A DNA stretch of 64,000 nt. Origin: Lachnospiraceae bacterium. GTDB taxonomy: Bacteria; Bacillota; Clostridia; Lachnospirales; Lachnospiraceae. Positions 32,277-55,349 of the stretch are shown here, piece by piece. Both the position numbers and the translations under genes were made by a program. The DNA is taken from assembly GCA_029053015.1 (NCBI GenBank), contig JAIDHX010000007.1:1-64000 (forward strand). Direction: 5' to 3'. The notes beneath the pieces are model-generated. The model did no database searches and was not told where the DNA came from. It was given only the letters and a program-made list of their open reading frames with translations. Every line of letters begins with the position of its first letter. Positions within the stretch are counted from its first letter, which is position 1.

Positions 32277-32305
32277 TTGACAAATGAAAATTATATGTAT
32301 ATAAT
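32277..32305 (+). promoter_or_regulatory. Strong sigma-A-type promoter in a gene-free region
   Basis: Consensus TTGACA (32277-32282) and consensus TATAAT (32300-32305) with the optimal 17-bp spacer. No protein gene follows for more than 500 bp. Confidence 0.85.
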
Positions 32306-32311
32306 GAACTT

Positions 32312-32668: not shown

Positions 32669-32822
32669 ATGTAATAAAAAGGATTAAAACAGCGAAAAAT
32701 ATATTTCTGCCATATTAATTTGACGAATTAAGAAAAAAATTAAGAAAAGTAGAGTATTTTCTGTAGAAAAGTGTCTCAAAATAGAGTATGATATACCATA
32801 TATAGTGGAGGAGAATGATTAG

Positions 32823-34181: not shown

Positions 34182-34246
34182 CGGCAGGCGGAATACTACG
34201 CTGCTTTTCAGGGCAGAAGAATGCCGGATAAAAGGAAACATCGGAC

Positions 34247-34290
34247 AGAGGAGCATATCATCACAAATCAAGGTGATTGCTCCTCTTTTC
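34247..34290 (+). terminator. Rho-independent terminator after nagZ
   Basis: AGAGGAGCA (34247-34255) pairs with TGCTCCTCT (34278-34286), extended by an inner ATCAC/GTGAT stem, then TTTTC. Confidence 0.75.
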
Positions 34291-34297
34291 TGTTTGC

Positions 34298-34336
34298 CGG
34301 TGATTATATTTTATACAGAATGTGATATAATCACCG
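34298..34336 (+). promoter_or_regulatory. Palindromic operator-like site overlapping a -10 element
   Basis: CGGTGATTATAT (34298-34309) and ATATAATCACCG (34325-34336) are a perfect 12-bp inverted repeat with a 15-bp spacer. The right arm contains TATAAT (34326-34331), 58 bp before the HTH-kinase gene. A protein bound here would block the promoter; autoregulation by the downstream HTH protein is a guess. Confidence 0.55.
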
Positions 34337-34388
34337 ATAAACGAGGATGGCATGTTATAATAAAGCAAATATTTTATGGAGTATACTT

Positions 34389-35558
34389 ATGAAATATGTA
34401 AATGCAAACGAGGTGCTGCCTGCGGAATTACTTGCGGCGGTTCAAAAATGTTATCAAGGCGGTTATCTGTATATACCAAAAGGAAATGCCTGTGAGGTAA
34501 AACAGAAGACGGACTACAAGATTGAGTTGGAAAAACGCAATCAGTATATCTATTTGAAGCACCTGGAAGGGAGAACGAACGGGCAGCTTGCAAATATATA
34601 TCATCTGTCGGAGCCAAGTATCAGAAGAATTATTTCGAAGGAAAGGGTGGGGTATCAAAAAATGAAAGGAATCATAGAACAGATTTTACCTTTATGGGGA
34701 ATGGAAAACAGACAATTAGAACAAATATATCCTTCGGCTTGGGAGGTCAATCATTCCTATGTGTTAAAAGTGTATGATGACAAAAAACAGTTGGAAAGAA
34801 ATATAAAAATATTGACAATATTATCGGGCTGCAATATTCCGGTGGCGGAGATAGTACCTGCCAAAACAGGAGAAAAATATGTCGAGTGTCAAAACGCCTA
34901 TTTCTTTATGACAAAAAAACTGCCGGGAAGTAATGATTTTGACATGAAAGATGAAAAAATGGCTTGGAAAATGGGCTGTGCAATCGCACGGCTGCATATA
35001 GCGTTCCGGGAATGTGAAAAGGAAGTTGAATTTTGGGATAATAGCCTGTTAAAAGAGATGAAGGGCTGGGTACGGGACAACTTAAGCAATCATGAATGGC
35101 AGATAGTAGACGAAGCGGAATATGAAAAAACAGTGGAGTCGTTAGAGCGCGTGTATGGCTTTCTGCCAAAGCAGTTGATTCATAGAGATGTGCATTCCGG
35201 GAACTTTTTGTTTTCGGAGGGCAATTTTACAGGATATATTGATTTTGATTTGAGTCAGAAAAATATCAGGATATTCGATATTTGTTATTTCCTGACAGGA
35301 TTGCTGGCAGAAGAAACGGAAGAAGCGCTTACAAAGAGTGAATGGCTTGCAAATGTAAAAGCAGTGGTTGCAGGCTACGAGAGCATAATCAAACTTTCTG
35401 AGAAAGAAAAAGCAGCAATTCCCTGTGTGATGGAATGTATAGAAATTTTGTTTGTCGCATATTTCATCGGTATGGAAGACACAAAGCAAGCTGACACTGC
35501 ATATGATGTGTTTCGGCTGATACAAAATTGTACGGAACTTCAGGGTTGTTATTTTTAA
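34389..35558 (+). CDS. Fusion of a CD3324/Mor-type HTH domain and an aminoglycoside phosphotransferase-like kinase
   Basis: About 389 residues. Residues 1-85 match the small CD3324-like regulators (KYVNANEVLPAELLAAVQKC, GGYLYIPKG, then the HTH NGQLANIYHLSEPSIRRIIS). Residues about 95-389 are an APH/choline kinase fold: a nucleotide-binding N-lobe, the catalytic loop LIHRDVHSGNFLF and the metal-binding GYIDFDLSQ. The HTH unit is normally a stand-alone protein. A kinase able to modify a small molecule fused to a DNA-binding module suggests a self-contained sensor/regulator or a resistance gene with built-in control. The substrate is not known. The ATG at 34389 follows TGGAG. Confidence 0.85.
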   Translation: MKYVNANEVLPAELLAAVQKCYQGGYLYIPKGNACEVKQKTDYKIELEKRNQYIYLKHLEGRTNGQLANIYHLSEPSIRRIISKERVGYQKMKGIIEQILPLWGMENRQLEQIYPSAWEVNHSYVLKVYDDKKQLERNIKILTILSGCNIPVAEIVPAKTGEKYVECQNAYFFMTKKLPGSNDFDMKDEKMAWKMGCAIARLHIAFRECEKEVEFWDNSLLKEMKGWVRDNLSNHEWQIVDEAEYEKTVESLERVYGFLPKQLIHRDVHSGNFLFSEGNFTGYIDFDLSQKNIRIFDICYFLTGLLAEETEEALTKSEWLANVKAVVAGYESIIKLSEKEKAAIPCVMECIEILFVAYFIGMEDTKQADTAYDVFRLIQNCTELQGCYF

Positions 35559-35612
35559 AAGTATGGTTTACCATAGAAATCAACAATCCCAATAAATGTG
35601 AGGAATAATAAC

Positions 35613-37946
35613 ATGTATAGAATAAAGATAAATACAAATGAAAAAATCACAGATGTTTCGGAAAGCCTTTATGGTCTGTTTTTTGAAGACATTAACCGAG
35701 CGGGGGACGGCGGCATATATGCTGAATTATTGCGGAACAGAGCCTTTGATGACGGTATTATACCGCAGGAGTGTACATATGACCCGCAAAATAAACTTAT
35801 CATTTCACCGACAGGCTGGCGTTCTTCGTTTGACTGCTGCGAGAACGAAGGTATCGCGGCGTGGACTGCGTGCAGTGGTGCAGAAATGCAGCTTACTGAT
35901 AAAAATACTCTGCACAAAAACCGCAAACGTGCTTTGGAAGTAAATTTCAAAGGCGGTTATATACAAAATGATGGATTTATGGGCATACCTGTTCAAAATG
36001 GGAGATCATACAGATTTTATATGTTTGCAAAAGCTGATGAAGCGACGGAAGTATCGGTACTGCTTACTTCCGAAAACGGCAGGGAATACGCAAAGCACAC
36101 CTTTATGGTATGCGGCGATTATAATAAGTATGAGTGTGAATTAACAAGCATTGCAGAGGATTTTAACGGACGTCTTGCTATGTGCTCATCTTCGGCGCAA
36201 ACCGTTACGATTGGCTTTACATCTCTTTTTCCAACGGACACATTTATGGGGCGGGAGAACGGACTGCGAAAATCGTTAGCGGAAAGAATGATAAAGTTAA
36301 ATCCTGCTTTTCTCCGATTTCCGGGCGGCTGTATTGTGGAAGGTTTTACTAAGGAAACCGCTTTCAGATTTGAAGATACGATAGGTCCTGTATGGGAGAG
36401 GAAACCTCACTGGCTGCTGTGGTCTTATATGACAACGAACGGACTTGGTTTTCACGAATTTCTGCAATTTTGTGAGGACGCCAAAATAGATGCTATGTAT
36501 GTATTTAACTGCGGAATGACTTGTCAGGGAAGAAATCCCGACTATTTTGATGAGGAACTGGTCAATCAGTATTACGAAGATACCGTTCACGCTGTTTTAT
36601 ATGCCACAGCCCCTGCCGATACAGAGTGGGGAGCTAAAAGAGCAGCTAACGGACATACGGAACCTTTTACAGTACTGAAATATCTTGAAATTGGCAATGA
36701 AAACTGGGGCAGTGAATACTGCAGGCGTTATGAATATTTTTATAACAAGCTGAAAAAACAGTTCCCGCAGTTCATATATATTTCGACAGACCATACCGAA
36801 CGCAGCGGACTGAAAACGGAAATGGTCGATGAACATTTTTATTCTTCGCCTGAATTTTTTGCCGCTAATTCTGCAATGTATGATAATTTGGACAGAAACG
36901 GCGCAGACATATACTGCGGCGAATATGCGGCAACGATTGGCTGCAAAGAGGGAAATTTATACGGCGCATTAGGCGAGGCAGCATTTCTGACAGGAATTGA
37001 AAGAAATCAGGACAAGGTTCGTATGACAAGCTATGCTCCTCTTTTTCAGAATGTCGCATATAAGGCGTGGGAGCCTGATATGATAATTTTCAATAACCAC
37101 GAGGATTATGCTATCCCAAGCTACTATATGCTGAAAATGTTTGCGGAAAACCGCGGGAATTATGTCTGCGGATATGAAGTTAAAACAGAAGCGGATAGGC
37201 AAATGGAAAAAGGCGCTTTTGCCATCCACTTTGAAAAAGGGCTAAGTGTTTCAGCTATTTATATTGACAATAAACCATGTGAAAATGTTTGTACTCTTGA
37301 GGGCGACATCAGTTTTACAGATAATAAATCGTATATGGGTACGGGTGTAGGGCTTGTGGGTGACATTCAAAAAAACAGGCAAAGCTTTTCAGCTCTAATA
37401 AAAGCGGAGAACGAAAGAATACACCTTCGTTTTTGGGACACAGGGCTTAAGGGCGAGGATCAGAACCATTACGACTGGATAATAGAAGAAGGTAAAAGCC
37501 GGGTCGTACACTATAATGGCTGGTCAAATGAAATAATATGTGATAATGCAGCGTGTACAGTAAACAAGGAGAATGAGGTTCGGATCATTACTGATAATGA
37601 CACATTTGAAATTACTTTCAACGGCAATATTTTACATCACAAGGCACTTGCGGAAATCCCGCACATAACGGCGGTCTGTACGGTAGATAAAAAAGCGTCG
37701 GAAGTGATAACAAAGCTGGTAAATTTCTCCGAAAAAGAACTAACCGTAAATATTTGTACAGACACAAAAATGGACGGTAAAGCTGTGCTCACAACTCTTA
37801 CAGGAGACAGCTATTATGCCGGAAATACCTTTGATGACAAGGAGGCTGTTTATCCTTATACCGAAACAATTGAAGCGGGTACAGATTATAATATTTTGAT
37901 AAGACCTCGTTCAATCAATGTGATACGGCAGCGATTGGCCGATTAA
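35613..37946 (+). CDS. Alpha-L-arabinofuranosidase, GH51 family
   Basis: About 777 residues. The N-terminal region (SLYGLFFEDINRAGDGGIYA) and FLRFPGGCIVEGFT are GH51 hallmarks. The acid/base glutamate is in YLEIGNENWGSEY and the nucleophile glutamate in IYCGEYAA. The C-terminal beta-domain completes the enzyme. A carbohydrate-binding-like segment (about 75-200) is inserted near the N-terminus. No signal peptide is present, so it probably acts in the cytosol on imported arabino-oligosaccharides. The ATG at 35613 follows GAGGA. A GH43 enzyme lies 3 kb downstream on the other strand. Confidence 0.93.
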   Translation: MYRIKINTNEKITDVSESLYGLFFEDINRAGDGGIYAELLRNRAFDDGIIPQECTYDPQNKLIISPTGWRSSFDCCENEGIAAWTACSGAEMQLTDKNTLHKNRKRALEVNFKGGYIQNDGFMGIPVQNGRSYRFYMFAKADEATEVSVLLTSENGREYAKHTFMVCGDYNKYECELTSIAEDFNGRLAMCSSSAQTVTIGFTSLFPTDTFMGRENGLRKSLAERMIKLNPAFLRFPGGCIVEGFTKETAFRFEDTIGPVWERKPHWLLWSYMTTNGLGFHEFLQFCEDAKIDAMYVFNCGMTCQGRNPDYFDEELVNQYYEDTVHAVLYATAPADTEWGAKRAANGHTEPFTVLKYLEIGNENWGSEYCRRYEYFYNKLKKQFPQFIYISTDHTERSGLKTEMVDEHFYSSPEFFAANSAMYDNLDRNGADIYCGEYAATIGCKEGNLYGALGEAAFLTGIERNQDKVRMTSYAPLFQNVAYKAWEPDMIIFNNHEDYAIPSYYMLKMFAENRGNYVCGYEVKTEADRQMEKGAFAIHFEKGLSVSAIYIDNKPCENVCTLEGDISFTDNKSYMGTGVGLVGDIQKNRQSFSALIKAENERIHLRFWDTGLKGEDQNHYDWIIEEGKSRVVHYNGWSNEIICDNAACTVNKENEVRIITDNDTFEITFNGNILHHKALAEIPHITAVCTVDKKASEVITKLVNFSEKELTVNICTDTKMDGKAVLTTLTGDSYYAGNTFDDKEAVYPYTETIEAGTDYNILIRPRSINVIRQRLAD

Positions 37947-37975
37947 TCAATTTCAAATTTAACGGAGGAAAAAGG

Positions 37976-38373
37976 ATGGAGTATCGATTGGCGTCAAAAG
38001 AAGAACTGGAGAGGCATTCACTTTTGTTGTGTTAGATGCCGATGTTCCAATCGGGGAAGGAACCTTGATTTTGTCGCCTGCATGCAATGCCATTGCGGGC
38101 AGACTGCCCCTGTGCGATGGCAAAGAAATTGCCAATATTAACGCCTTGCGTATTCGAAAAGAATATGAAGGAAATGGTCATATTTCAAAACTGATGCGGG
38201 AAATAGAATGTTATGCAAAGAATCATAAAATAGCAAGACTGACAATCGGAGTTGAGGCAAAGGAAATAAGAAATTTAGCAATTTACCTGCACTTAGGATT
38301 TACGGAATTTCTTTTTTCGGAAGTGGAGGAGGGAGAGCTGGTGTTGTATTTGGGGAAAACGATCAAAATATAA
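37976..38373 (+). pseudogene. GNAT acetyltransferase remnant with internal deletion and frameshift
   Basis: The gene starts properly (AAGG site, ATG 37976, MEYRLASKEELERH) but runs into a stop after 19 codons. A second frame, entered near 38016, reads AFTFVVLDADVPIGEGTLIL and continues with the GNAT core IANINALRIRKEYEGNGH and IGVEAKEIRNLAIYLHLGF to 38373. Compared with intact members of this family, roughly 30 codons of the N-terminal third are missing at the junction. It is therefore a deleted, out-of-frame copy. Confidence 0.75.
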
Positions 38374-38383
38374 AATTCCGTAG

Positions 38384-38412
38384 TTGACAAAAATGATTGG
38401 CTGTAGTATATT
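38384..38412 (+). promoter_or_regulatory. Promoter of the tRNA-Gly gene
   Basis: TTGACA (38384-38389) and TATATT (38407-38412), 17-bp spacer, 33 bp before the tRNA. Confidence 0.8.
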
Positions 38413-38445
38413 ATTATTTGTCCGTTAAATATGGACATTTGATAA

Positions 38446-38517
<72 letters not shown>

Positions 38518-38530
38518 GTCTATGATCCTT

Positions 38531-38558
38531 GCCCGTCAGTCTTTGACGGGCATTTTTT
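38531..38558 (+). terminator. Terminator after tRNA-Gly
   Basis: GCCCGTCA (38531-38538) pairs with TGACGGGC (38544-38551), followed by ATTTTTT. Confidence 0.9.
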
Positions 38559-38667
38559 ATGTACGCATATTCTACAGGCAAACTTTAAAGCCTTACAGTA
38601 CCAAATCAATCATTTCTGCCATATCAGACAAAGAAACAGCAAATTCTTTTTTTCTTTTCCTTTTTTG

Positions 38668-38696
38668 TTGACTTTTTTAGGGCTTCTTGTGATAAT
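38668..38696 (+). promoter_or_regulatory. Probable promoter of the small proline-rich membrane protein gene
   Basis: TTGACT (38668-38673) and GATAAT (38691-38696) with a 17-bp spacer, about 90 bp before the start codon. Confidence 0.5.
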
Positions 38697-38783
38697 AAAT
38701 GCGAAATATGCTTTTTCATTACAGTAAATATGTAGATGGATTCGTAAAAGAAAACCTGGAGACGAAAGAAAGGAGTTTTACCA

Positions 38784-39038
38784 ATGGACGAAACAATGGT
38801 AGTTTTTATCGTGGTTATTGTACTAATTCAAACAATTGTACTTGCGATTATGTGGGCAATTATTAAATCTGCCGCAAAAGCAGGCGTACAACAGGCTTTA
38901 TGGGAAACATTACCGAAATTTTGCAGGGAAAATCAGATTATGCCCCCACAGCAGAATTTTATGCCGCCGCAGAATACGATGCCACCACAGAATACGATGC
39001 CGCCACAACAGGGATTTTACAACATGCCGCCGAGATGA
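38784..39038 (+). CDS. Small membrane protein with MPPQ repeats
   Basis: 84 residues. One N-terminal membrane segment (about 6-27, VVFIVVIVLIQTIVLAIMWA) is followed by a short amphipathic part and a C-terminal tail of MPPQ-type repeats (MPPQQNF, MPPQNT twice, MPPQQGF). AAGGAG precedes the start and a terminator follows, so it is a real single-gene unit. No function is known. The tail could bind proteins through poly-proline interactions. Confidence 0.75.
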   Translation: MDETMVVFIVVIVLIQTIVLAIMWAIIKSAAKAGVQQALWETLPKFCRENQIMPPQQNFMPPQNTMPPQNTMPPQQGFYNMPPR

Positions 39039-39076
39039 CCGAATTTATAGAAATGGCGGACAAAATACCAATGCAT

Positions 39077-39119
39077 AAGCAATCCGCCAACTCTGTACGA
39101 AAATGCGGATTGCTTTTTC
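39077..39119 (+). terminator. Terminator after the small membrane protein gene
   Basis: AAGCAATCCGC (39077-39087) pairs perfectly with GCGGATTGCTT (39105-39115), then a T-run. Confidence 0.9.
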
Positions 39120-39157
39120 TCGTTATATAGGATACAATTTACATAATATCATTTAAA

Positions 39158-40699
39158 ATGCAGGCGGTTATGATGTTCGGAGCGCTGCGGGAGGAAAGGT
39201 ATCTTGATATGCTGTTAAAAACGCCGATAGTATGTCTTTTATTTATTATATATATGATTGGATTTTACTATCGGAAGCCGCATATTCCGATAAAATCCAC
39301 AAGGATTTTCAGGGCGCTTACGGGAGTGGCGTTTCTGAATGCTCTGTTTGATTTGATCACGGTTTACACGGTCAATCACAGAGACACGGTTTCGAATGTG
39401 GTGAATCTGGTGGCACATATTATCTATTTAATGTCCATACTGGGTTTTATTTATATGTTGTTTTTATATATGAGAAGTTATCTGGAAGCCAGTCTGCGGT
39501 TTGACAAAACGCTGAAAGTGCTGCACAGTCTGCCGTGTTGTCTGTCAACCATAGGGATTCTGGTGCTGCCGATTACCTATGTCCATGGAAAAACCACGGA
39601 TTATTCTTTGGGACCGAAGGCGTACGCTCTATATGGAAGTGTTGTCATATACCTGATTCTGATTTTGTATTACTGTCTCCGCTACTGGAAGATTCTGGAC
39701 GGTGAAAAAAGAATGGCAATCATACTTGCCGTTCCGATTTATATTGTTACTTCGGCCATTCAAATGCTGATGCCGGAAAATCTTTTGGTGGTTGTCTGTT
39801 CCACACTTATTATGCTCGGTCTTATACTGAGCAACGAGAATACGGAAAAATATGTGGACGAAAAATCTGCGTTGTTCAATCAGTATGCCTTTGAGACGGT
39901 TCTGGATGAAAATGATTTTGAAAAACAGAAGAAGATGATAGCGGTTCTGTGTTTTTGCAAGACAGAAAACAATTTTGACTGGAAGCAGGATGCGCTGATT
40001 ATGCAGGATATTCACAGGGGTATCAAGTCATACCGCCTGCAGGGGTACCGCATCGGTGAAAATGGTGTGGCGTTTATCAGCGGAACAAAGGAAAAAGCCT
40101 ATATGGTGCTGGAGAAGGTAAAGAATGCCGTCGAGGGTAAGTACGGAAGGGACAGCATAAGCATTGATACCAAGGTTTTGTCGGATGCGGAGACGGCAGC
40201 AAAGCATAACTGTATGCAGAGCATCATTGCTTTTTGCACGGAGACGGGCAGCCATTTTGCATATATCGATTATATGACGCACATTTATAACCGGAATGCG
40301 CTGGAACGGGATTTGGGAAAGCTTGCAAAGGACAGCAGCGGTTATTACATAATTGCCGATTTGAACGACTTGAAAAAAGTGAATGATACGATTGGACATT
40401 CTGCAGGCGACAAGTTGCTGCAGGGGTTTGCCGGCCTGCTTTCCGACACAGCTTTAGAAAATGGCAGGGTATACCGTCAGGGCGGAGATGAATTTGCCGT
40501 TTTATATGACGGGGATGCAGAGCAGTTTATCCGCGAACTGGAGGAACATTGCAGAATCTATAATCAATCCAGCAATGTTCCCATCAGCTATGCAATTGGG
40601 TACTGCGAGCTTGGCGTTGAGGGCTTCCTGAATATCGCGGACAGCATGATGTACGCCAACAAAAATGCTGTAAAGCAGCAGAGGGATGCACATTTATAG
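39158..40699 (+). CDS. Membrane diguanylate cyclase-type GGDEF protein
   Basis: 513 residues. About seven membrane segments occupy residues 20-225. A middle region of about 120 residues follows. The GGDEF domain (about 370-510) carries FAYIDYMTHIYNRNALERDL, IIADLNDLKKVNDTIGHSAGD and an intact active site in YRQGGDEFAVLYDG. It should make cyclic di-GMP in response to a signal sensed in or near the membrane. No product-binding RxxD was identified with confidence. The start is uncertain: 39158 has a poor ribosome binding site, and ATG codons at 39170 and 39173 are possible. Confidence 0.9.
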   Translation: MQAVMMFGALREERYLDMLLKTPIVCLLFIIYMIGFYYRKPHIPIKSTRIFRALTGVAFLNALFDLITVYTVNHRDTVSNVVNLVAHIIYLMSILGFIYMLFLYMRSYLEASLRFDKTLKVLHSLPCCLSTIGILVLPITYVHGKTTDYSLGPKAYALYGSVVIYLILILYYCLRYWKILDGEKRMAIILAVPIYIVTSAIQMLMPENLLVVVCSTLIMLGLILSNENTEKYVDEKSALFNQYAFETVLDENDFEKQKKMIAVLCFCKTENNFDWKQDALIMQDIHRGIKSYRLQGYRIGENGVAFISGTKEKAYMVLEKVKNAVEGKYGRDSISIDTKVLSDAETAAKHNCMQSIIAFCTETGSHFAYIDYMTHIYNRNALERDLGKLAKDSSGYYIIADLNDLKKVNDTIGHSAGDKLLQGFAGLLSDTALENGRVYRQGGDEFAVLYDGDAEQFIRELEEHCRIYNQSSNVPISYAIGYCELGVEGFLNIADSMMYANKNAVKQQRDAHL

Positions 40700-45987: not shown

Positions 45988-46476
45988 ATGAATACGGAAT
46001 GGATATTGTCAGAAGAGGAGAAAAGCAAATATATCAGTAAACTGACAGACGAGTTGATTGTGCTTAGGGCAAAAGCCGGTATACAGCAAGAAGAAATTGC
46101 CAGAGTAATCGGGGTTTCCAGACAGACTTATGGTGAGGTAGAGAGAAAATCTAAGAAAATGTCGTGGGGGACTTATCTGTCGCTGATGTTTTTCTTTGAT
46201 CAGAATAAGCAAACACATCAGTTACTTAGACAGACGGGAGTGTTTAATAAGAGTCTGTCAGCTTTTTTAAATAACGGAATTGCGGCAGACGAGAATGAGT
46301 TGGATTCTCTGGCCGGGTTTTCTTTGAAAGATATCTTGAATGCGCTGGATGAGCAGGGGCTTCAGTCGGTTAAAACGGTGATGATGATTGAGTATGCAAG
46401 GTGTAAAAATATGCCGGGTGATGCAGTTATCAAATCCTTTGACGGACGAAACTTTGATAAATATATTACAAAATAG
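45988..46476 (+). CDS. XRE-family regulator heading the ubiquitin-like operon
   Basis: About 162 residues. The HTH (about 22-80) contains LRAKAGIQQEEIARVIGVSR and QTYGEVERK. The C-terminal 80 residues are helical with no known domain. The ATG at 45988 follows a G-rich ribosome binding site (GGGGGGA); the frame from 45928 overlaps the promoter and was rejected. As the first gene behind the promoter, 76 bp ahead of the first RING-like gene, it is the natural candidate for local control of the operon. Confidence 0.88.
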   Translation: MNTEWILSEEEKSKYISKLTDELIVLRAKAGIQQEEIARVIGVSRQTYGEVERKSKKMSWGTYLSLMFFFDQNKQTHQLLRQTGVFNKSLSAFLNNGIAADENELDSLAGFSLKDILNALDEQGLQSVKTVMMIEYARCKNMPGDAVIKSFDGRNFDKYITK

Positions 46477-46552
46477 GATATTCAAGCAGATGCTGTGCTG
46501 ATGAGCCGTGAAAACGTGCTTACCAAAATAGAAACTATGAGGAGGAAAATGT

Positions 46553-49009
46553 ATGGAGCGTATTTATGTCGGAAAGACATGCCCGTATTGTAAGACTCCG
46601 TTTAAGCAGGAAGATGTAGTTGTGTTCTGCAACACATGTTCTATGCCACACCATTTAGCGTGCTGGCAGGCTAACGAAGGGTGCAGTACGTATGGCTGTT
46701 CAGGATTAATTGATACAATAATTAATCAGGAAAATGCCAACAAAATGACCGCCCCAAGCAGCGCTCAGAATGGCCCATCTGCCAGTGTACCGAAACCATC
46801 AGGCCAGACTGGAAAATTTGAAACCATTTTTGAAATTACGGATGGAAAAGTTCAGGAAGATGTTCCTGTACTTATCGAAAAGATTTCATTGATAAAGGAT
46901 ATCAGTGATGCTTCGATATTTGCAAGATGTTCTTTTAGAAGTCTTACTGATGAACCCATTAAGGCATTGCTTTTGGATATTAAGGCGACGGATGCATGGG
47001 GAAATTCAGTTGAAGGTGTAGAGGGATTCCAGCTTCTTGACTTAAAGACGAAGAGAGAAGCTGTATTTGGGCAAACAACCCCAATTCCTATACCGAATAA
47101 AAACGTGCGAGAGATTGACGTTATTATAAGAAAAATCCTTTATGAAAATCGCAGAATGGTGGAATGTAATGAGGCATCGTCAGCGGTTCCAATGCAGCCT
47201 GCCCTATTGTCTGTATTAGGTAGTAAGGATGCCGTAGAACACTTCGCTGAGCTGACGACTAAGTCCGCAAAGTTAGTTCCGGTTGTGGGTGAAAAAATCT
47301 GGCGATGTACCTGTGGGGCGACCAACAATGCAGGAGAAGATATCTGCTATAGCTGCAAATCGAGTCTGGCTCAACTTCAGGATAAATATAATCCGGAGAA
47401 AATTATCGCTGAGACAACTGCTATCGTAGAAGAACGAAGAAGAAAAGAAGAAGAAATTCGTCTTGCAAGAGAAAGGGAACAGAGAGAAGCAGAAGAACGG
47501 TTAAGAAAAGCCCAGGAAGAGAAGGAACGTCAAGAACGTGAGGAAAAGGAAGCAAAGAAAGCTAAGAGGAAGAAAACAATAAAGGGGATTGTATTTGCAA
47601 CCTTGGGGCTCATTCTTTTAGCCGGTGCAATATACGGAAGCGTATTCCATCTTATTCCATATATTAGATATTCTGTGGCGGGAAGTAACGTTGAAAAACA
47701 GAACTTTGATTCCGCATATAATACATATATAGCACTTGGTGATTACCGAGATAGTGCGGAGAAAGCAATAGAGACTTTATATGCAAAGGCAATTTATCTG
47801 GAAGAACAGGAACAGTTTGCAGACGCAGCTGTTGAATATGAAAAGATTCCTGACTATCAGGATAGCGAGGAAAGGGCAGTCTACTGCAGAAATGAAGCGA
47901 ATTACAGAGATGCAAAGTCGAAGTATGAGGCGAAGGAATATGATGAAGCGTTGACATTATTTAGAGGTCTTGGAGGTTACGCCGATTCAGAGGACTGGAT
48001 TAAAAAAACAAAATATGCCAAAGCTTCTGAATTGTTTGCAAACAAGGATTATGCTATGGCCGCAGATTTGTTTAAGGAATTGGGGAATTATGAAGATTCC
48101 AAAGATCGAATGAAAGAATCTACGTATCAAATGGCGGAAACTGCATATGCGAACAAGGATTATAAAACTGCGTATGAAGGATACAAGACGCTTGGTTTAA
48201 GTTATGAGGATGCTCCGGATAAAGCAAAGGATGCCAAATATCTCTATGCAGATGAATGCCTGACTGCGAAGAAATACCAAGAGGCTTCAGACCTGTTTAA
48301 AGACTTGAAAGACTATAAAGATGGACAAGATAAGTTTAATGAATCGACATATGCGTATGCGAAGGAATGTTTGGCTGCCAAAAGGTATGAAGAGGCAAGA
48401 ACATATTTTGCAGAAGTAAAAGGTTATGAATATTCTGATGCTTTGTGGAAAGAAGCAAGTTATTATGCCGGTGTAGCTTGTATCAATTCTAAGGACTATA
48501 AAAAGGCAGTCCAATATTTTGAAGATGCCGGAGATTATAGTGATGCGAAGACAAAGGTTAATGAAGCAAAGTATTCATATGTACAAGCACATATGAGTAA
48601 CACAGATACAACAACGTATTCTTATCTGAAAGATTTGAAATCGGCGGGATATTCCGATGCAAAAGATATTTATAATGATTTATACGCATGGAAAGCAAGC
48701 ATTATAATAAATAGTTCAAAGGATGGAACATATTCATCCAGTAAATTGAGTAGATATGATAATTGGTATTGTCATATTGAACTTTCCGGAGGCCCCCCTG
48801 GAGAATCAACTACATTGAAAGCGGTAGGGTATTTCCCTGATGGATCTCCTGTTACAAACAAGTGGGATGGTCCATGGCATAGTGGATATACTGGAACTTG
48901 TTGGTTTTATTATTCAAATCCGGCTTATGGATCAACCGGAACTTTTACTATAAAAGTATATGATGGAAATGGAAACATGATTGGTAGTGAATCAGTGAGA
49001 ATATATTAA
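46553..49009 (+). CDS. RING-like zinc module / TPR-like membrane protein (candidate E3)
   Basis: 818 residues. Residues 8-50 form a binuclear zinc module with ligands C10, C13, C26, C29, H34, C37, C44 and C49, the prokaryotic RING-like arrangement. A beta-rich domain (about 85-220), a zinc ribbon (about 250-272, CTCGATN and CYSCK) and a charged coiled coil (about 293-340) follow. A membrane segment (about 343-363) separates these from seven or so TPR-like repeats (about 380-690; each with DYxDS/A and KYxxA motifs) and a C-terminal beta-sandwich (about 715-818). Predicted topology: zinc modules inside, repeats outside. RING-type domains recruit E2 enzymes. Next to E1 and E2 genes this makes it a candidate ligase that senses envelope state. 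Ligase activity is inferred. Confidence 0.88.
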   Translation: MERIYVGKTCPYCKTPFKQEDVVVFCNTCSMPHHLACWQANEGCSTYGCSGLIDTIINQENANKMTAPSSAQNGPSASVPKPSGQTGKFETIFEITDGKVQEDVPVLIEKISLIKDISDASIFARCSFRSLTDEPIKALLLDIKATDAWGNSVEGVEGFQLLDLKTKREAVFGQTTPIPIPNKNVREIDVIIRKILYENRRMVECNEASSAVPMQPALLSVLGSKDAVEHFAELTTKSAKLVPVVGEKIWRCTCGATNNAGEDICYSCKSSLAQLQDKYNPEKIIAETTAIVEERRRKEEEIRLAREREQREAEERLRKAQEEKERQEREEKEAKKAKRKKTIKGIVFATLGLILLAGAIYGSVFHLIPYIRYSVAGSNVEKQNFDSAYNTYIALGDYRDSAEKAIETLYAKAIYLEEQEQFADAAVEYEKIPDYQDSEERAVYCRNEANYRDAKSKYEAKEYDEALTLFRGLGGYADSEDWIKKTKYAKASELFANKDYAMAADLFKELGNYEDSKDRMKESTYQMAETAYANKDYKTAYEGYKTLGLSYEDAPDKAKDAKYLYADECLTAKKYQEASDLFKDLKDYKDGQDKFNESTYAYAKECLAAKRYEEARTYFAEVKGYEYSDALWKEASYYAGVACINSKDYKKAVQYFEDAGDYSDAKTKVNEAKYSYVQAHMSNTDTTTYSYLKDLKSAGYSDAKDIYNDLYAWKASIIINSSKDGTYSSSKLSRYDNWYCHIELSGGPPGESTTLKAVGYFPDGSPVTNKWDGPWHSGYTGTCWFYYSNPAYGSTGTFTIKVYDGNGNMIGSESVRIY

Positions 49010-49024
49010 TAGGAGGGTGCTTCG

Positions 49025-49861
49025 ATGAACGAATATGTAGGAAAAATTTGTCCGGTATGCAAATCGGAAATCAACGAACTGGACAAAATAACAGTATGTC
49101 CGGATTGTGGAATACCACATCATACGGAGTGCTGGGAAATGAATGGTGGATGCTCAACTTTTGGTTGTGCTCAACAAGGAACCATAGAAGCAAAGGAGAA
49201 AAAGACTATGGCAACATGCGTAAAGTGTGGAATGGAAATTGGTGAGGATCATGCTTTCTGCCCTAAGTGCGGAACACCTAAAAATGCACCTAAGAAGAAT
49301 GTATGCGGCAAATGCGGAAATGAATTGGCAGACGGACATGAATTCTGCCCTAAGTGTGGTCAGAGAGTTGGTTTGGCAGTTGACAGCAATGTTGCATCTG
49401 CAATCAATCAGTTTAATAGCGGAGTGGCTCAGCAGAATGCAAAGAAGAAAAAGACACCGATTATTATTGGTGCAGTAGCAGCAATTGCAGTTATTATTGT
49501 TATTGTTGTTGTTTTTGCGTTGAAAGGCGGAATCAAAAAGGGACCTGATTTCCAGAAATTGTATGACGAGTATTGTCAGCCTACTTGGGCATCTGTTGGT
49601 TCTGATGGCAGCTACTTAAGCCTTGATACAAATCCATATGATCGCGATGATGATGGGTTGGCATATCCGTCAGCGTATATAGCAGCAAAAAAGATTAATG
49701 ACGCGTTAGGTCTTCCTGAGTCGTTATATGCTGAATTTGGTGAGACAACAGGAGCGGATGGTAAGCAGTCAGAAGATTTTCCTGAACAAGGTGTAACAGT
49801 GCAGTGGAGGTATCATCCTGATAAGGGCCTTGAAATAACATATAAGAAGTTAAAGAAATAA
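49025..49861 (+). CDS. Second RING-like zinc protein, membrane anchored (candidate E3)
   Basis: 278 residues. The N-terminus repeats the zinc module of the upstream protein: C9, C12, C25, C28, H33, C36, C43, C48, including the shared PHH, CW and GGCSTFGC signature. Two zinc ribbons follow (CVKCGMEIGEDHAFCPKCG and CGKCGNELADGHEFCPKCG, about 64-115). A membrane segment (about 146-168) and a small C-terminal domain of about 105 residues (YDEYCQPTWASVGSDGSYLS) complete it. It is probably a paralogue of the large protein with a different outer domain, so the system may have two ligases or receptors. The gap to the previous gene is 15 bp. Confidence 0.87.
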   Translation: MNEYVGKICPVCKSEINELDKITVCPDCGIPHHTECWEMNGGCSTFGCAQQGTIEAKEKKTMATCVKCGMEIGEDHAFCPKCGTPKNAPKKNVCGKCGNELADGHEFCPKCGQRVGLAVDSNVASAINQFNSGVAQQNAKKKKTPIIIGAVAAIAVIIVIVVVFALKGGIKKGPDFQKLYDEYCQPTWASVGSDGSYLSLDTNPYDRDDDGLAYPSAYIAAKKINDALGLPESLYAEFGETTGADGKQSEDFPEQGVTVQWRYHPDKGLEITYKKLKK

Positions 49862-49875
49862 TAAAACAAGGGTTG

Positions 49876-49903
49876 ACCACGAGATGCATTTGCTTCTCGT
49901 GGT
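49876..49903 (+). promoter_or_regulatory. Intercistronic hairpin before the ubiquitin-like gene
   Basis: ACCACGAGA (49876-49884) and TCTCGTGGT (49895-49903) form a perfect 9-bp stem with a 10-base loop, without a T-run. It sits in the largest gap between intact genes of the operon after the regulator. It may stabilise or process the mRNA so that the small modifier is made in excess. Confidence 0.5.
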
Positions 49904-49936
49904 TATGTATGTGATAAAGAACAGGAGATAATAACA

Positions 49937-50215
49937 ATGGGAAAAGTAAATGTTGTAATTGTTGATGTAACCGGAAATAAGGAACAGAAAGTCGGTCTTC
50001 CTGATGATATTAGGTGTGGGATTATTATGGTTAAGCTCGTAGAGAAAATCAAACTTCCTTCAGTTGGACCGGATGGCAATCCTATCAGTTATAAATTTAT
50101 TCACAAGGTGACCGGAAGACAGCTTCTTGAATCTCAGACTCTTGGTGAAGCCGGAATAAAGGATGGAGACGTGTTAAGGCTTCAGCCTGAGATTACGGCA
50201 GGAGCAATACTGTAA
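49937..50215 (+). CDS. YukD-like ubiquitin-fold protein (candidate modifier)
   Basis: 92 residues, matching one beta-grasp domain: strand VNVVIVDVTGN, strand EQKVGLPDD, central helix about 28-40, KFIHKVTGRQLLESQTLGEA and the final strand VLRLQPEI. The pattern resembles the YukD/EsaB branch of ubiquitin-like proteins. The tail is ITAGAIL, not a terminal GG. A single glycine is four residues from the end, so the tail would need trimming to expose it, or another terminus is used. It is the expected substrate of the E1 encoded 19 bp downstream. CAGGAGA precedes the start. Confidence 0.87.
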   Translation: MGKVNVVIVDVTGNKEQKVGLPDDIRCGIIMVKLVEKIKLPSVGPDGNPISYKFIHKVTGRQLLESQTLGEAGIKDGDVLRLQPEITAGAIL

Positions 50216-50234
50216 ACAGATAGGACGGACTGAT

Positions 50235-51419
50235 ATGAGCGATTTATTGGAATTGGATAAATCGGATTTTGAAGAAGATAAATATAGCAGACTTCGGTTG
50301 ATTCCCTGGTGGGATCAGGAAAGGTTGTCTAAAGCCACAATAATGGTTGTGGGGGCAGGGGCAATTGGAAATGAATTGATTAAAAATCTGACTCTTTTGG
50401 GTATAGGCAGAATTTTAATCTATGATATGGATGCTATTGAAAATACAAATCTTACAAGATCCGTATTATATAGAGCAAAGGATGTTGGAAGATATAAAGC
50501 TGATGTCGCAGCTGAAAGAGCCGGTGAAATGAACCCGGATGTTCATGCCAAGGCTTTCGTCTCCAATATTATTGATGATGTGGGGCTGGGTGTTTTCCGA
50601 AGAATGGATGTAGTTCTTGGCGGTCTGGATAATAGGGAAGCAAGACTGCATATAAACCAGTCCTGCTATAAGGTCAACAAACCATGGATTGATGGTGCAA
50701 TTGAAGCTCTAAATGGGTTTGCGAGAGTTTTTGTTCCCGGACATGGCGCGTGTTATGAATGCACTATGACAGAGACAGACTGGATGCTGATTAATAAGCG
50801 TAAGTCTTGCGCACTTCTTACACATGAGCAGATGGCAGAAGGCAAAATACCTACAACGCCAACGTCTTCATCGGTTATTGCCGGCATTCAGGTACAAGAG
50901 ATGTTGAAACTTTTGCATTCTGATAGAAATCTACCGACGTTGGCCGGAAAAGGCTATGTGTTCAACGGATTAACACATGACTCATATGTAGTTGAGTATC
51001 AGGAAAAACCAGACTGCATGAGCCATGATACATATGAGGAAATAATTGAAAAACCTTGGTCTGTTAAAGACAAGACAATAAAGAGTGCTTTAGAAGAAAT
51101 CAAAGCCGAGTTAGGTGAGAATGCAGTATTGGATCTTGATAGAGACATTGCTGTCGAGGGAACATGTTCTTGCGGAGAACATAAAAAATTATTTATGCCG
51201 GTACATAAACTAAAGGGAGCAATGCTCACATGCGAAAAATGCGGTAAGCAGATGAGCTTTGAAAACAAGCATTCATTTAATGGAACAGAAGATTATCTTG
51301 ATAAGACATTTGAAGAGATTGGAGTTCCGCCATTACATATTATTGCCGGAAGAGTAGGTATGAACATCAAGCATTATGAATTTACTGCCGATGAGACCGA
51401 AGTATTCTGGGGAATATAG
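50235..51419 (+). CDS. E1-like ubiquitin-activating enzyme (ThiF fold) with C-terminal zinc ribbon
   Basis: 394 residues. The Rossmann-type adenylation domain (about 20-245) has MVVGAGAIGNE (residues 37-47), LIYDMDAIENTNLTR and GGLDNREAR. The CxxC (C173, C176) and C192 in KRKSCALLTHE follow. The latter precedes TTPTSSSVIAGIQVQE in the position of the thioester cysteine of eukaryotic E1-type enzymes. The C-terminal 90 residues carry a zinc ribbon (C311, C313, C333, C336). It should adenylate the C-terminus of the ubiquitin-like protein and load it on C192, then pass it to the E2 encoded 10 bp downstream. Confidence 0.93.
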   Translation: MSDLLELDKSDFEEDKYSRLRLIPWWDQERLSKATIMVVGAGAIGNELIKNLTLLGIGRILIYDMDAIENTNLTRSVLYRAKDVGRYKADVAAERAGEMNPDVHAKAFVSNIIDDVGLGVFRRMDVVLGGLDNREARLHINQSCYKVNKPWIDGAIEALNGFARVFVPGHGACYECTMTETDWMLINKRKSCALLTHEQMAEGKIPTTPTSSSVIAGIQVQEMLKLLHSDRNLPTLAGKGYVFNGLTHDSYVVEYQEKPDCMSHDTYEEIIEKPWSVKDKTIKSALEEIKAELGENAVLDLDRDIAVEGTCSCGEHKKLFMPVHKLKGAMLTCEKCGKQMSFENKHSFNGTEDYLDKTFEEIGVPPLHIIAGRVGMNIKHYEFTADETEVFWGI

Positions 51420-51429
51420 GAGGTAACTC

Positions 51430-53280
51430 ATGGACGCAAGATTAAGAAGAATTGCTTCGGATTATGAGCAAATAAAAAAGGACTTTGCGGGGCATAAGAA
51501 TATTGTTGTTACTCCAATAGGGGATGAACCGCCGCAGAAATATCATGTTACATACTATGTGAATGGTATTTACCTGCAACCGGATGGAAGAATAGAGACA
51601 CTTGGAAGACATGAAGTGGAAATTGAACTTCATTCAGAGTATCCGAGATACAAGCCGATTTGTAAGATACAGACCCCTATCTGGCATCCAAACTTTAGAG
51701 ATGGACAGATTTGTATTGGCGATATCTGGGGAGCCGGGGAATCCCTGACAGATATAATCATAAATATCGGAGATATGATTCAGTACAAGTCATGGAATTC
51801 ATATAGCCCACTCTCTGCAGATGCTGCAGTATGGGCAATGGATAATAAGCATCTTTTTCCGGTCGGTAATGTTGATTTATATATAGCTGACTACGCATCA
51901 GCTAAAGATACTGTTGAAATCGATTTGTTTGGAGATGAATCGACGTCGCCTGATTTAAGCGTTGTTGCTCAGATGACAGTACCTGTTGTTAAGGAAGAGT
52001 CGGGAAATGATTTTGAAATAACGGCTGAAGAACTGGCTGGAATTGAATTTATACCTACCGCTGAAAGGATGCAGGGGGCTTCTGCTTCTGCCGGTCAGAC
52101 GGTGAAGGTAAAAATCAGTTTTAAAACAATCCTTGCAAAAGGTATCTTATGGGCATTGATTGGTGCCATTCTTGGCTTTGGAGGCGCTGAATTGGCACAG
52201 AAAGTTTTCTCTAATTCGACCGTGGCTTCCATGATGGGTTACAAAGACTTGTCAAAATATTATGCGTTGCAGGATAAAGCTGATAAGCTGGAGTCAAAGA
52301 TATATGATCTGGTGGAAGCATATGCCAAAGAACATGACCTTGATATGGACGAAGATGACGTTCTCACAAAATGGCTTGTGGCAGCAATAGATAGTGAGAA
52401 TAAGATTGCATTAGATTGGTACGAAGCATACAATAAGGCGGATGATAAGCTTTATGAGGCGTACAGGGATGATTTTGATAGTGATGTAGATGATCTGAAA
52501 AGTGCAATGGCAAAAGTTTCCAGAACTCACACAGGCATTTGGGCCGGATTTATTGCACTGTTTATTGGATTGTTCCTTGGTATAGGCGAAGGCATTTATT
52601 ACGGTTCTAAACAAAATGCAGGCAAATATGCGGCAATCGGTGCCGTGGTATCACTTGTAATCGGCGGTATAAGCGGATACTTGGCTCAGTGGATGTATGC
52701 GTCCATGCTTAGTGATGATCCGGGTGAAATTGCAGCAGCTTTAGTTAGAGGCGCCGGTTGGGCGATTATGGGCCTTGGTGTTGGTTTAGCAGTAGGTCTG
52801 ATTAAGCCTGATATTAAGAGAATAATTTCATGTACAATTGGTGGCGCTGTTGGTGCATTTGTCGGAGGTTTCCTGTTTAACTTTGTAGGCAAGGTTGTTC
52901 CAAACGATATGGCATCAAGAGGGGTTGCAATTGTAATAATGGGAATTCTTATCGGCGTTGGTGTAGGTCTTATGGAACAGTTTGCTAAATCTGCATGGCT
53001 TAAAGTGATAAGAGGAGAATTTGAAGGAAAAGAGTATTTGGTATTCCCCGGTACGACAAGCATTGGTAACAATAGCAAGAATACTATCGTTCTATTTAAG
53101 GACAAACTGGTCAGCCCTCATCACTGCGATATTGTAATGCAGGGCAGCAAGTATGTGATTAAGGATTGTGGTTCTCCAATGGGAACTGTTGTAAACGGTA
53201 TTAAAACAACCCAGCGTGTATTGCGTCAGGGTGATGCTATTGCAATTGGTAATTCAGTTCTTGTGTTCAATACAAAATAA
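51430..53280 (+). CDS. E2-like conjugating enzyme fused to six membrane segments and an FHA domain
   Basis: 616 residues. Residues about 1-150 are a UBC fold with the E2 hallmark HPN (H86-P87-N88) and the catalytic cysteine C95 in DGQICIGDIW. A linker with acidic motifs (VEIDLFGDE, NDFEITAEEL) follows. Six glycine-rich membrane segments lie between about 235 and 520. The C-terminal FHA domain (about 525-616; TTSIGNNSKNTIVLF, SPHHCDIVM, SPMGTVVNG) normally reads phosphothreonine. Both soluble domains are predicted to be cytosolic. A membrane-fixed E2 with a phosphopeptide reader links conjugation to Ser/Thr phosphorylation, although no kinase gene is in the island. GGAGG precedes the start. 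Confidence 0.92.
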   Translation: MDARLRRIASDYEQIKKDFAGHKNIVVTPIGDEPPQKYHVTYYVNGIYLQPDGRIETLGRHEVEIELHSEYPRYKPICKIQTPIWHPNFRDGQICIGDIWGAGESLTDIIINIGDMIQYKSWNSYSPLSADAAVWAMDNKHLFPVGNVDLYIADYASAKDTVEIDLFGDESTSPDLSVVAQMTVPVVKEESGNDFEITAEELAGIEFIPTAERMQGASASAGQTVKVKISFKTILAKGILWALIGAILGFGGAELAQKVFSNSTVASMMGYKDLSKYYALQDKADKLESKIYDLVEAYAKEHDLDMDEDDVLTKWLVAAIDSENKIALDWYEAYNKADDKLYEAYRDDFDSDVDDLKSAMAKVSRTHTGIWAGFIALFIGLFLGIGEGIYYGSKQNAGKYAAIGAVVSLVIGGISGYLAQWMYASMLSDDPGEIAAALVRGAGWAIMGLGVGLAVGLIKPDIKRIISCTIGGAVGAFVGGFLFNFVGKVVPNDMASRGVAIVIMGILIGVGVGLMEQFAKSAWLKVIRGEFEGKEYLVFPGTTSIGNNSKNTIVLFKDKLVSPHHCDIVMQGSKYVIKDCGSPMGTVVNGIKTTQRVLRQGDAIAIGNSVLVFNTK

Positions 53281-53303
53281 GATTTAATGGAGGCGAATGG
53301 CAT

Positions 53304-54176
53304 ATGAAACGATTAAAACAGACAATAGGGGTTTTATTTAGTTTCATAATGCTGTTCGCTTTTTCTATTGATTGCTTTGCAATGGACTTTGATGCAGAGG
53401 CTGCTTATGAGTCAATTTTTGTAATATATTCCGGAAATTATGAAGGAAGCGGGTTTGCGATTGGTTCCAATACGGTTGTTACAAATGCTCATGTAATCGG
53501 AAATCAAAATGACATAATAGTGAAAGCATATTCCGGTCAGGAATATAATGCATCCATTTATCTTTTTAATGAGGCCCTGGATATTGCGATATTAAGTGTA
53601 GATAATGCAGAATTTATTCCGCTTGAAATAGGAAACTGCGACGATATTAAGGTCGGAGACGATATATATGCAATAGGTGCTCCAAGAAGTTTGGAGTATA
53701 CGCTTACAAAAGGAGTTATTTCAAATAAATCAAGAACAATCGGTTTTAATAAATATATACAGATTGATGCTGCTATTAATTCCGGAAATAGTGGCGGTCC
53801 GCTTTTGAATAGTGCCGGACAGGTAATTGGTGTTAATTCCATGAAGATATCAGATGCAGAAGGAATCGGACTTGCAATTCCTATTTCTACTGTAACGAGT
53901 TTTATGGAAGGAAATGATATGAATTTAACAGAAGATAAGACAGTAGATGGAAAAATAGAGTATGTTCCTGCAGATTTGCCGGAGGAAGAAGGTAATGTAT
54001 TAGTTCAGAAAGTTCCTGATTATACTTTAGCAATTATTTTTGGCGTACTTTTAGGTATGTCAGTGGTGATAAATATTATTTTTTTAATTATTCTTGTGTA
54101 TAGGAAGAATAAAGATATTGTTGTTCCAACTGATGCAAGAGATAGAACGGATTTTGAAATTGATATTTTGGAGTGA
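53304..54176 (+). CDS. Membrane-anchored trypsin-like serine protease
   Basis: 290 residues. A signal sequence (about 1-26), then a DegP/trypsin-type protease (about 35-215) with H63 in VVTNAHVIG, D93 in ALDIAIL and S163 in GNSGGPLL. There is no PDZ domain. A membrane segment (about 233-258) ends in a short cytosolic tail, RTDFEIDILE. The catalytic domain should lie outside the cell, so it may cut an envelope signal protein rather than the cytosolic modifier. The tail resembles the start of the JAB protein (NDFDIDILDEE). GGAGG lies upstream of the start. Confidence 0.9.
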   Translation: MKRLKQTIGVLFSFIMLFAFSIDCFAMDFDAEAAYESIFVIYSGNYEGSGFAIGSNTVVTNAHVIGNQNDIIVKAYSGQEYNASIYLFNEALDIAILSVDNAEFIPLEIGNCDDIKVGDDIYAIGAPRSLEYTLTKGVISNKSRTIGFNKYIQIDAAINSGNSGGPLLNSAGQVIGVNSMKISDAEGIGLAIPISTVTSFMEGNDMNLTEDKTVDGKIEYVPADLPEEEGNVLVQKVPDYTLAIIFGVLLGMSVVINIIFLIILVYRKNKDIVVPTDARDRTDFEIDILE

Positions 54177-54215
54177 TTGATAGTTTACAGACCATTATAA
54201 ATGGAGGTGTTTGAA

Positions 54216-55349
54216 ATGAATGATTTTGATATAGACATCTTAGATGAGGAAGAAACAGAACAGGATGCTGTTCAACTTCCGATGAATTATCTGTTGATCG
54301 GAGAACTGGAAAATGATGATGCCAAGGTATATATAAAGCAAGATGTTTACAAGGCTCTTGAAGAATATGCTTCATCTGATACTGATCATGAGCTGGGGAC
54401 AATTATCCTGGGTAATTATTCAGACGCTTTAGGTAAGATGAATGTAGTCATTTCGGAGTTCATATATGCAAAGTATACAGATGCGTCGGCTGCGTCATTA
54501 ACATTTACACATGAGACTTGGGATTATGTACATAAAGAGCATGAAAACAATCATCCGGACACAAAAATTGTAGGATGGCAGCATACACATCCGGGATATG
54601 GTATTTTTCTGTCCAATTACGATATATTTATTCAGGAAAATTTCTTTAATCTGCCATTCCAAGTGGCTTATGTAATTGATCCTGTGCAGCATATAAGAGG
54701 ATTCTTTCAGTGGAAAAATGGAAAGGTTGAAAAGCTGAAGGGTTTTTATATTTATGATGAGGTTGGAAAACAGATTAAAATAGAGCAGCCTAAAGAAAAG
54801 AAAAATTCCGGTTCAGGTGCAAGCATAATGAGCGGGGCTGATAATGGAAGTAAATTTTCTGTGTTTCAACCAATCATGTTGGGCGTGCTATGTGTAGCGG
54901 TAATTGGGCTGCTGATTTCTACAATGTCGCTTCATAAAAGATATGCCCGTCAGGTGGAAGAACAGGAGGCGTTGGAACTTCAGCTGGCTGAGCAGAACAT
55001 GCTAATCTCACAGCAGGCAATGGAGTTAGAATCAGTAAAGACAGCAGCAACTCATCCGACTGATACGCCGTTGGATAATCCAACCGTAGATAATAAAGAA
55101 GATGAATCAAAGGATATAGAGTTTGGCGCAACTGAGCCGGATGAGCCGTCACAAGAACCGCCTTCAATTGATGGCAGAGTGTATTTTACTGCATATAAGG
55201 TAGAACCGGGAGATTCGCTCTACGCGATTTGCGCTAAGAATAATCTGGATTATGCTTCTGCTTATAGAATCATTCTTGCCATAAATGGAATTCAAGATCC
55301 GAATCAGATTTATGCAGGACAGACAATCTTACTGCCAATCGAGGAATGA
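54216..55349 (+). CDS. JAMM/JAB deubiquitinase-like protease fused to a LysM domain
   Basis: About 377 residues. The cytosolic JAB domain (about 20-180) has a complete JAMM metal site: E59, then H123 and H125 in WQHTHPGYG, S133 and D136 in FLSNYD. A membrane segment (about 219-238), a coiled coil (about 241-275), a proline- and acid-rich linker and a LysM domain (about 327-374, YKVEPGDSLYAICAKNNL, YAGQTILLP) follow. JAMM enzymes remove or process ubiquitin-like proteins; LysM binds peptidoglycan. The ATG at 54216 is preceded by GGAGGTG; an in-frame ATG at 54201 overlaps that site. The gene ends 9 bp before the right direct repeat. Confidence 0.93.
   Translation: MNDFDIDILDEEETEQDAVQLPMNYLLIGELENDDAKVYIKQDVYKALEEYASSDTDHELGTIILGNYSDALGKMNVVISEFIYAKYTDASAASLTFTHETWDYVHKEHENNHPDTKIVGWQHTHPGYGIFLSNYDIFIQENFFNLPFQVAYVIDPVQHIRGFFQWKNGKVEKLKGFYIYDEVGKQIKIEQPKEKKNSGSGASIMSGADNGSKFSVFQPIMLGVLCVAVIGLLISTMSLHKRYARQVEEQEALELQLAEQNMLISQQAMELESVKTAATHPTDTPLDNPTVDNKEDESKDIEFGATEPDEPSQEPPSIDGRVYFTAYKVEPGDSLYAICAKNNLDYASAYRIILAINGIQDPNQIYAGQTILLPIEE

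Follow-up and report, generated by a model that had tools for sequence, protein, structure and literature searches.

Does a single bacterial operon encode a ubiquitin-type cascade built into the cell membrane, and what would such a cascade do? The question is raised by positions 45988 to 55349 of the window, the 64,000-nucleotide stretch of Lachnospiraceae DNA analyzed here, in which a regulator gene and seven tightly packed genes form a series of eight open reading frames on one strand (+) with gaps of 10 to 76 bases (Table 1). We consider it likely that the products of this operon form a reversible ubiquitin-like (UBL) conjugation pathway on the cytosolic face of the membrane.

An operon with all classes of conjugation component

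The initial annotation, made from the sequence alone, assigned the seven genes after the regulator to one pathway. All eight open reading frames were recovered in the places and on the strand proposed, and each protein class is borne out by Pfam matches above the curated cut-offs (HTH_3, Prok-RING_1 twice, YukD, ThiF, UQ_con with FHA, Trypsin_2, and JAB with LysM). A Kyte-Doolittle scan predicts one transmembrane (TM) helix each in RINGa, RINGb, and the JAMM protein, six in E2, and none in the UBL or E1; the protease has a predicted signal peptide and TM segment, so that five of the seven proteins have predicted membrane segments, as first counted. The G+C content of the operon is about 0.39 to 0.42, compared with 0.48 to 0.49 in the 2-kb windows at 40 to 44 kb and 56 to 60 kb.

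Table 1. Features of the operon, with positions in the window and the evidence for each
Feature	Positions	Strand	Evidence
HTH_3 (XRE-type) regulator, first gene	45988..46476	+	Pfam HTH_3 9.4e-07
RINGa	46553..49009	+	PF14446 1.2e-10; eight Zn ligands; one TM
RINGb	49025..49861	+	PF14446 5.1e-15
UBL, YukD-type beta-grasp modifier precursor	49937..50215	+	PF08817 5.1e-12; 443 relatives
Gly89 codon, predicted mature C-terminus (...PEITAG)	50201..50203	+	EITAG in 119/121
AIL tail following Gly89 (removal predicted)	50204..50212	+	hypervariable in 76 tailed sequences
E1 (ThiF/UBA type), catalytic Cys192	50235..51419	+	PF00899 6.7e-55
E1 Cys192 codon	50808..50810	+	pattern matched in 17/17 loci
E2: UBC domain, linker, six predicted TM helices, FHA-like domain	51430..53280	+	PF00179 1.4e-08, PF00498 1.2e-13
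E2 active site H86-P87-N88 ... C95	51685..51714	+	invariant in 47/47 sequences
Motif-like stretch TVEIDLF, E2 linker	51910..51930	+	pattern in 114/119 E2 relatives
Putative docking-motif copy DFEITAEEL, E2 linker	52009..52035	+	DF[DE]ITAEEL-type pattern in 110/119 E2 relatives
E2 six predicted TM helices, N-in/C-in	52129..52977	+	TM scan; loop charges
FHA-like domain without phosphate-binding Arg	53056..53250	+	Pfam; residue counts
HtrA/trypsin-type protease	53304..54176	+	PF13365 9.2e-31
Putative docking-motif copy DFEIDILE, protease C-terminus	54150..54173	+	motif near end in 10/11 proteases
JAMM (JAB) metalloprotease, TM, LysM; likely start 54216	54201..55349	+	PF01398 2.2e-06, PF01476 2e-09
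Putative docking-motif copy DFDIDI, JAMM N-terminus	54222..54239	+	pattern in 11/16 loci
JAMM residues E64, H128, H130, S138, D141 (numbered from 54201)	54390..54623	+	invariant in 13/13 sequences

The description of the operon as complete stands in that all of the classes are present, but it needs a caveat, because nine related loci own a second JAMM gene that is absent from the window. This gene is found in nine of 16 evaluable loci, L004 among them, and adjoins a further RING gene in eight of those nine; neither gene is in the window or in L003.

YukD-like Ubl, E1, E2, JAB, and RING genes share one neighborhood in the window. Bacterial operons of these classes were reportedly predicted in 2011 by Burroughs, Iyer, and Aravind, who are said to have put forward RING E3s in prokaryotes as well as the conjugation of YukD-like Ubls. 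A study of 2006 (PMC1779556), in which YukD was still regarded as unconjugated, had already predicted operons that join E1, E2, JAB, and UBL genes in bacteria. The operon kind was predicted before, as the initial annotation remarked, and the window has a variant of it. A later paper (PMC5654768) also mentions that homologues of E2 and E3 are scattered among bacteria, some of them in complete operons. Among the papers listed by a literature search, with most subscription papers outside its reach, there was no experimental study of a YukD-UBL/UBC/RING operon.

The genes travel together

Co-occurrence of the genes in related genomes had been suggested as a check, and both the searches of the class and a comparison of 17 loci show it. 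Eight loci were found by an E2 scan of genome contigs and more by whole-genome searches; merging of duplicates left 17 distinct loci, including the window, and the contig of one (L042) ends early. Nine of the 17 (the window and L003 to L010) are the query itself or were found via their own E2, so that only the remaining loci test the link to UBC; the class searches are free of such bias. A UBL, an E1 with its Cys, and a UBC protein with HPN and Cys are present at all 17 loci (the contig of L047 has its E2 at a distance of about 34 kb), and JAMM and RING proteins at all 16 evaluable loci. The protease is an accessory of the pathway, being present at 11 of 16 evaluable loci, and a homologue of the regulator is found at seven of 17, some contigs ending before its position.

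Among 391 genomes of the class, UBL and UBC are both found in the same seven, which come from seven different families, and PF14446 exceeds its cut-off in 21, including all seven of these carriers. The family search recovered a full E2 in three of 299 genomes, one of them the window's own, and the phylum search recovered a UBL match in four of 398, one of which is a distant YukD without UBC; carriers among relatives number two of 61. The L003 E2 is a 100% match to that of the window, and across the loci identities to the window fall in step for UBL, E1, UBC, and JAMM (Spearman 0.86 to 0.90), with the UBL the most conserved component in 13 of 15 comparisons. The architecture varies. L039 is a minimal form, with a UBL, an E1, a 191-residue E2 without a TM-like stretch or FHA domain, a JAMM protein, and a 112-residue RING protein, and at L048 one gene encodes the E2 and another the TM-FHA part.

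A modifier predicted to end at one invariant glycine

The C-terminus of the UBL was examined in 121 sequences, the window and the best 120 of 443 relatives. EITAG is kept in 119 of these; 43 of the 119 stop exactly at its Gly, and in the other 76 residues follow, mostly one to five and hypervariable with no common sequence, but sometimes as a zinc-ribbon-like extension. At two loci (L010:7771-8787 and L038:9258-9848) the UBL is fused via the same Gly to a longer protein. A ubiquitin-type precursor that is processed should be conserved up to a single Gly and no further, and the UBL is likely to be a precursor-type modifier with this signature, its end being AlaGly rather than the GlyGly of eukaryote-type ubiquitin pathways. 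An invariant EITAG end followed by nothing, by a hypervariable tail, or by a fusion appears to be a new feature of such modifiers. The fusion partners are a TM/lipobox-like protein with repeats (by eye) and a zinc ribbon (Pfam), respectively, and the fusions are natural analogues of those of ubiquitin.

E1 and an E2 with predicted membrane helices

The residues first singled out in E1 (C192) and E2 (HPN and C95) are correct, and are invariant in alignments of eight sequences each, window included. Among solved proteins the E1 is nearest to UBA1 (7.3e-32), closer than to ThiF or MoeB. Structure prediction had been suggested as a check on the folds, and the UBC fold of E2 is recovered (AF2 model, Foldseek), with a model that is weak around the Cys; the match of the RING domain is small and weaker. 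The E2 has the UBC fold with HPN and catalytic Cys of eukaryote-type enzymes.

Loop charges over 47 E2s are +3.0 before TM1, −2.5 in loop 3, +2.5 in loop 4, and +3.0 after TM6, with the other loops near neutral. This pattern and the even number of helices predict an N-in/C-in topology, which places the FHA domain on the cytosolic side; the proposal that sensing domains face outside does not hold for it. FHA proteins that read phosphothreonine have a phosphate site of conserved Arg, Ser, and Asn. With a GarA alignment as guide, the Arg position is N in 46 and S in one of the 47 E2s, the Ser is kept in five, and the Asn position is Met in 45. Phosphothreonine reading by the E2 FHA domain is unlikely, because all 47 lack the Arg, 42 lack the Ser, and 45 have Met for the Asn. 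An E2 FHA domain that so consistently lacks the phosphate-binding arginine appears to be new.

RING-type zinc proteins

RINGa has an N-terminal RING (residues 10 to 49), a TM segment (346 to 364), and TPR-like repeats predicted to lie outside; RINGb has a RING (9 to 48), a double zinc ribbon, a TM segment (146 to 164), and a small ectodomain. The eight Zn ligands of RINGb are those of a cross-brace in C4HC3 order, and are invariant in 62 of 62 sequences. Pfam names PF14446 Prokaryotic RING finger family 1, and an AF2 model of RINGb resembles RING E3s weakly, over a small match. The zinc-protein class proposed for this pair is supported by PF14446 and the ligands, but their assignment as E3s is weakened, because PF14446 proteins also occur without the pathway (over cut-off in 14 of 384 class genomes with no UBL or UBC match), and by analogy only could they be termed E3s. 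Four of these orphans (L058 to L061) combine a RING with a zinc ribbon and a hydrophobic C-terminal part and resemble, by eye, the further RING protein of related operons, so that the RING of the pathway may have been co-opted from a family that does something else. The orphan coordinates are L058:1498-2562, L059:670-1668, L060:1498-2562, and L061:1390-2523. The RINGb ectodomain is apparently swapped in dozens of the 120 listed relatives (P0265 to P0367), in which Big_2 (PF02368) replaces the small domain of the window protein.

The protease and the JAMM protein

The protease has the triad H63/D93/S163, a C-terminal TM segment, and a predicted cytosolic tail. The solved protein nearest to the JAMM protein is Rpn11 (6.6e-12). 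Its active-site residues were rightly picked out in the initial annotation, in which their numbers (E59/H123/H125/D136) run from an internal Met at 54216 and correspond to E64/H128/H130/D141 from 54201; this Met is a near-invariant alignment column. Removal of the UBL tail is probably the work of the JAMM protein, which must have another task too, because the UBL of L047 needs no trimming and a JAMM gene is present there nonetheless.

A recurring acidic-aromatic peptide

A short peptide recurs in three of the proteins. We defined the pattern [DENST][FW][DE][IL][DETI][ILVFAM] with the sequences already in view. At the first nine loci, which are homologous to one another, it has 25 matches within the 23,821 residues of the operons and two within the 37,087 residues of the flanks. 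The window has three copies, one in the E2 linker, one at the protease C-terminus, and one at the JAMM N-terminus; the other five proteins have none, and none of 5000 shuffles of these three proteins has as many. A first, stricter pattern gave 17 matches versus none, two of the 17 (the window's E2 match included) falling within a UBC strand. A looser pattern finds the peptide at the ends of 10 of 11 proteases and, for JAMM proteins in the last position, at the starts of 11 of 16; the nine second JAMM proteins lack it. A cytosolic location is predicted for the copies in E2 and the protease and assumed for the one in JAMM. SUMO-interacting motifs (SIMs) are acidic with alternating hydrophobics, and the peptide is alike in that. 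We regard DF[DE]I[DT] as a candidate for a new docking code.

Relationship to known systems

One close parallel is the Caldiarchaeum subterraneum ubiquitin operon, reconstituted in vitro, which has a pro-modifier with a tail, an E1, an E2, a small RING protein, and an Rpn11-type JAMM protein that removes the tail, the same UBL layout as here; it differs in that its archaeal ubiquitin ends in GG, and the available text mentions no membrane anchoring and no FHA, LysM, or HtrA-type parts (PMC5654768). The E1/E2 chemistry, JAB isopeptidase, and conjugation via one C-terminal Gly of type II CBASS Cap2/Cap3, as given in an accessible excerpt (PMC10097602), are also similar to what is predicted here; unlike here, the CBASS modifier is the nucleotidyltransferase itself, E1 and E2 are fused, and there is no UBL and no RING protein. 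The Bil and Bub systems are cytosolic, unlike the window system with its predicted membrane anchors. They share with it a bacterial UBL, E1, E2, and protease, but the window UBL and E2 have no PADLOC match, and the available portions of the Bil (BilABCD) and Bub papers mention no RING protein (PMC12687455, PMC11354881).

These parallels bear on whether the operon is an anti-phage defense like Bil or type II CBASS, in which infection would lead to modification of an immune enzyme or of phage proteins. We consider this rather unlikely, even though phage defense is the main role of those bacterial UBL pathways that have been tested (PMC12687455, PMC10097602). The sporadic spread (seven of 391 class genomes, two of 61 relatives) and lower G+C than the surroundings fit horizontal transfer, and an XRE-type regulator heads the operon. 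PADLOC matches among 115 flank proteins (25 of 30 families listed) are to mad3 in five, WYL in two, and others in one or two each, these being raw counts with no background set, and include a type IV restriction enzyme (3.6e-92) and PDC-S72 (3.9e-173). Within the operon PADLOC gives ThiF-level E1 matches (BilD at 2.9e-07 among these) and JAB matches to related defense models, but nothing better than E 0.03 for the UBL, E2, or RING proteins. Transport, regulation, and metabolism account for most of the first 25 of 137 flank Pfam families, and AAA_21 is found in three flank proteins. Searches of a plasmid collection with the UBL, a phage collection with the E2, and a viral-contig collection with E1 patterns (close relatives of the E1) gave no match, and an outward LysM domain, protease, and RING ectodomains would be superfluous for such a role. 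With the flank scan mixed and these searches empty, the response to phage suggested at first finds no direct support.

The UBL shares the beta-grasp family PF08817 with YukD/EsaB of type VII secretion, and could be an assembly factor of that kind with accessory enzymes. L040 adjoins a DUF4176 gene, and L043 adjoins FHA, phage-baseplate, and DUF4280 genes; no such cluster is seen at the other loci as far as read, DUF4176 is in two of the 115 flank proteins (families listed), and WXG100 and EssC are not among the 25 of 137 flank Pfam families listed. YukD is reported to be unconjugated in the accessible part of the 2006 study (PMC1779556), and the distant YukD of the L049 genome, in a WXG-like setting (by eye), has neither a UBC protein nor an EITAG end. 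A type VII role is improbable, and would leave the C-terminal Gly pattern unexplained.

Attachment of the UBL to a membrane lipid by the membrane-embedded E2, as Atg3 does with Atg8, is very improbable. For this reading we count the single C-terminal Gly with a removable tail, predicted for the UBL and present in Atg8, together with the six predicted TM helices of E2. The single C-terminal Gly of Atg8 is noted in PMC10097602. Nevertheless, the E2 has a canonical HPN and a UBC match and is not Atg3-like, the E2s of L039, L048, and L056 have no TM-like stretch, and RING proteins are present at all 16 complete loci.

A sulfur carrier, with the E1 making a thiocarboxylate for a cofactor as in ThiF/ThiS or MoeB/MoaD, is extremely improbable: the E1 is in the ThiF family and its best NCBIfam model is adenyl_thiF, below cut-off, but it is closer to UBA1 among solved proteins, the UBL matches YukD and not ThiS/MoaD (Pfam), and sulfur transfer would have no use for membrane anchoring, for RING proteins, or for an invariant UBC E2 that has HPN and Cys.

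A model for conjugation at the membrane

Returning to reversible UBL conjugation, the set of parts consists of a YukD-type UBL, a UBA1-like E1, a UBC-family E2 with six predicted helices, RING-type zinc proteins, and an Rpn11-like JAMM protein. The variable tail of the UBL precursor would be cut, probably by the JAMM protein, exposing Gly89, and the invariant residues suggest that Gly89 would then be adenylated by E1, loaded on Cys192, and passed to Cys95 of E2. Because the HPN motif is next to Cys95, we infer lysine isopeptide bonds as the linkage, rather than lipid or sulfur chemistry. The RING-TM proteins, with their exchangeable outside parts, might join E2 and targets as E3-like receptors, which is the weakest enzymatic step, and the JAMM protein would remove the modifier. 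Through the recurring peptide, the E2 linker, the protease tail, and the JAMM N-terminus could all dock on one partner, for which the UBL is the likeliest candidate.

In its fullest form this would be a self-contained transmembrane system, with a pro-modifier trimmed to Gly89, a membrane E2, RING receptors sensing the outside, and a SIM-like peptide gathering E2, JAMM, and the HtrA tail onto the modifier; we find this version conceivable though doubtful. As to purpose, our tentative yet plausible guess is that the pathway would regulate proteins of the membrane and envelope or control their quality, and an envelope-stress response is possible. If working, the operon would be a near-complete ubiquitin-type cascade built into a bacterial membrane with no clear tie to phage defense; its enzymes are close enough to eukaryotic ones to bear on the origin of the ubiquitin system, and it is compact enough for reconstitution.

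Surroundings of the operons

The L043 operon is surrounded by genes for an FHA protein, a phage-baseplate hub-like protein, and DUF4280, a setting that suggests a contractile or tail-like secretion cluster. Upstream of the L040 operon (L040:15821-19782) are DUF4176, repeated small genes, and WXG-like coiled-coil proteins (by eye). The window has a second low-G+C stretch at 31000 to 40000 (0.40 to 0.43 from 32 to 40 kb), with glycoside hydrolase-3-like, phosphotransferase-like, and arabinofuranosidase-like genes (all by eye) and a tRNA-Gly.
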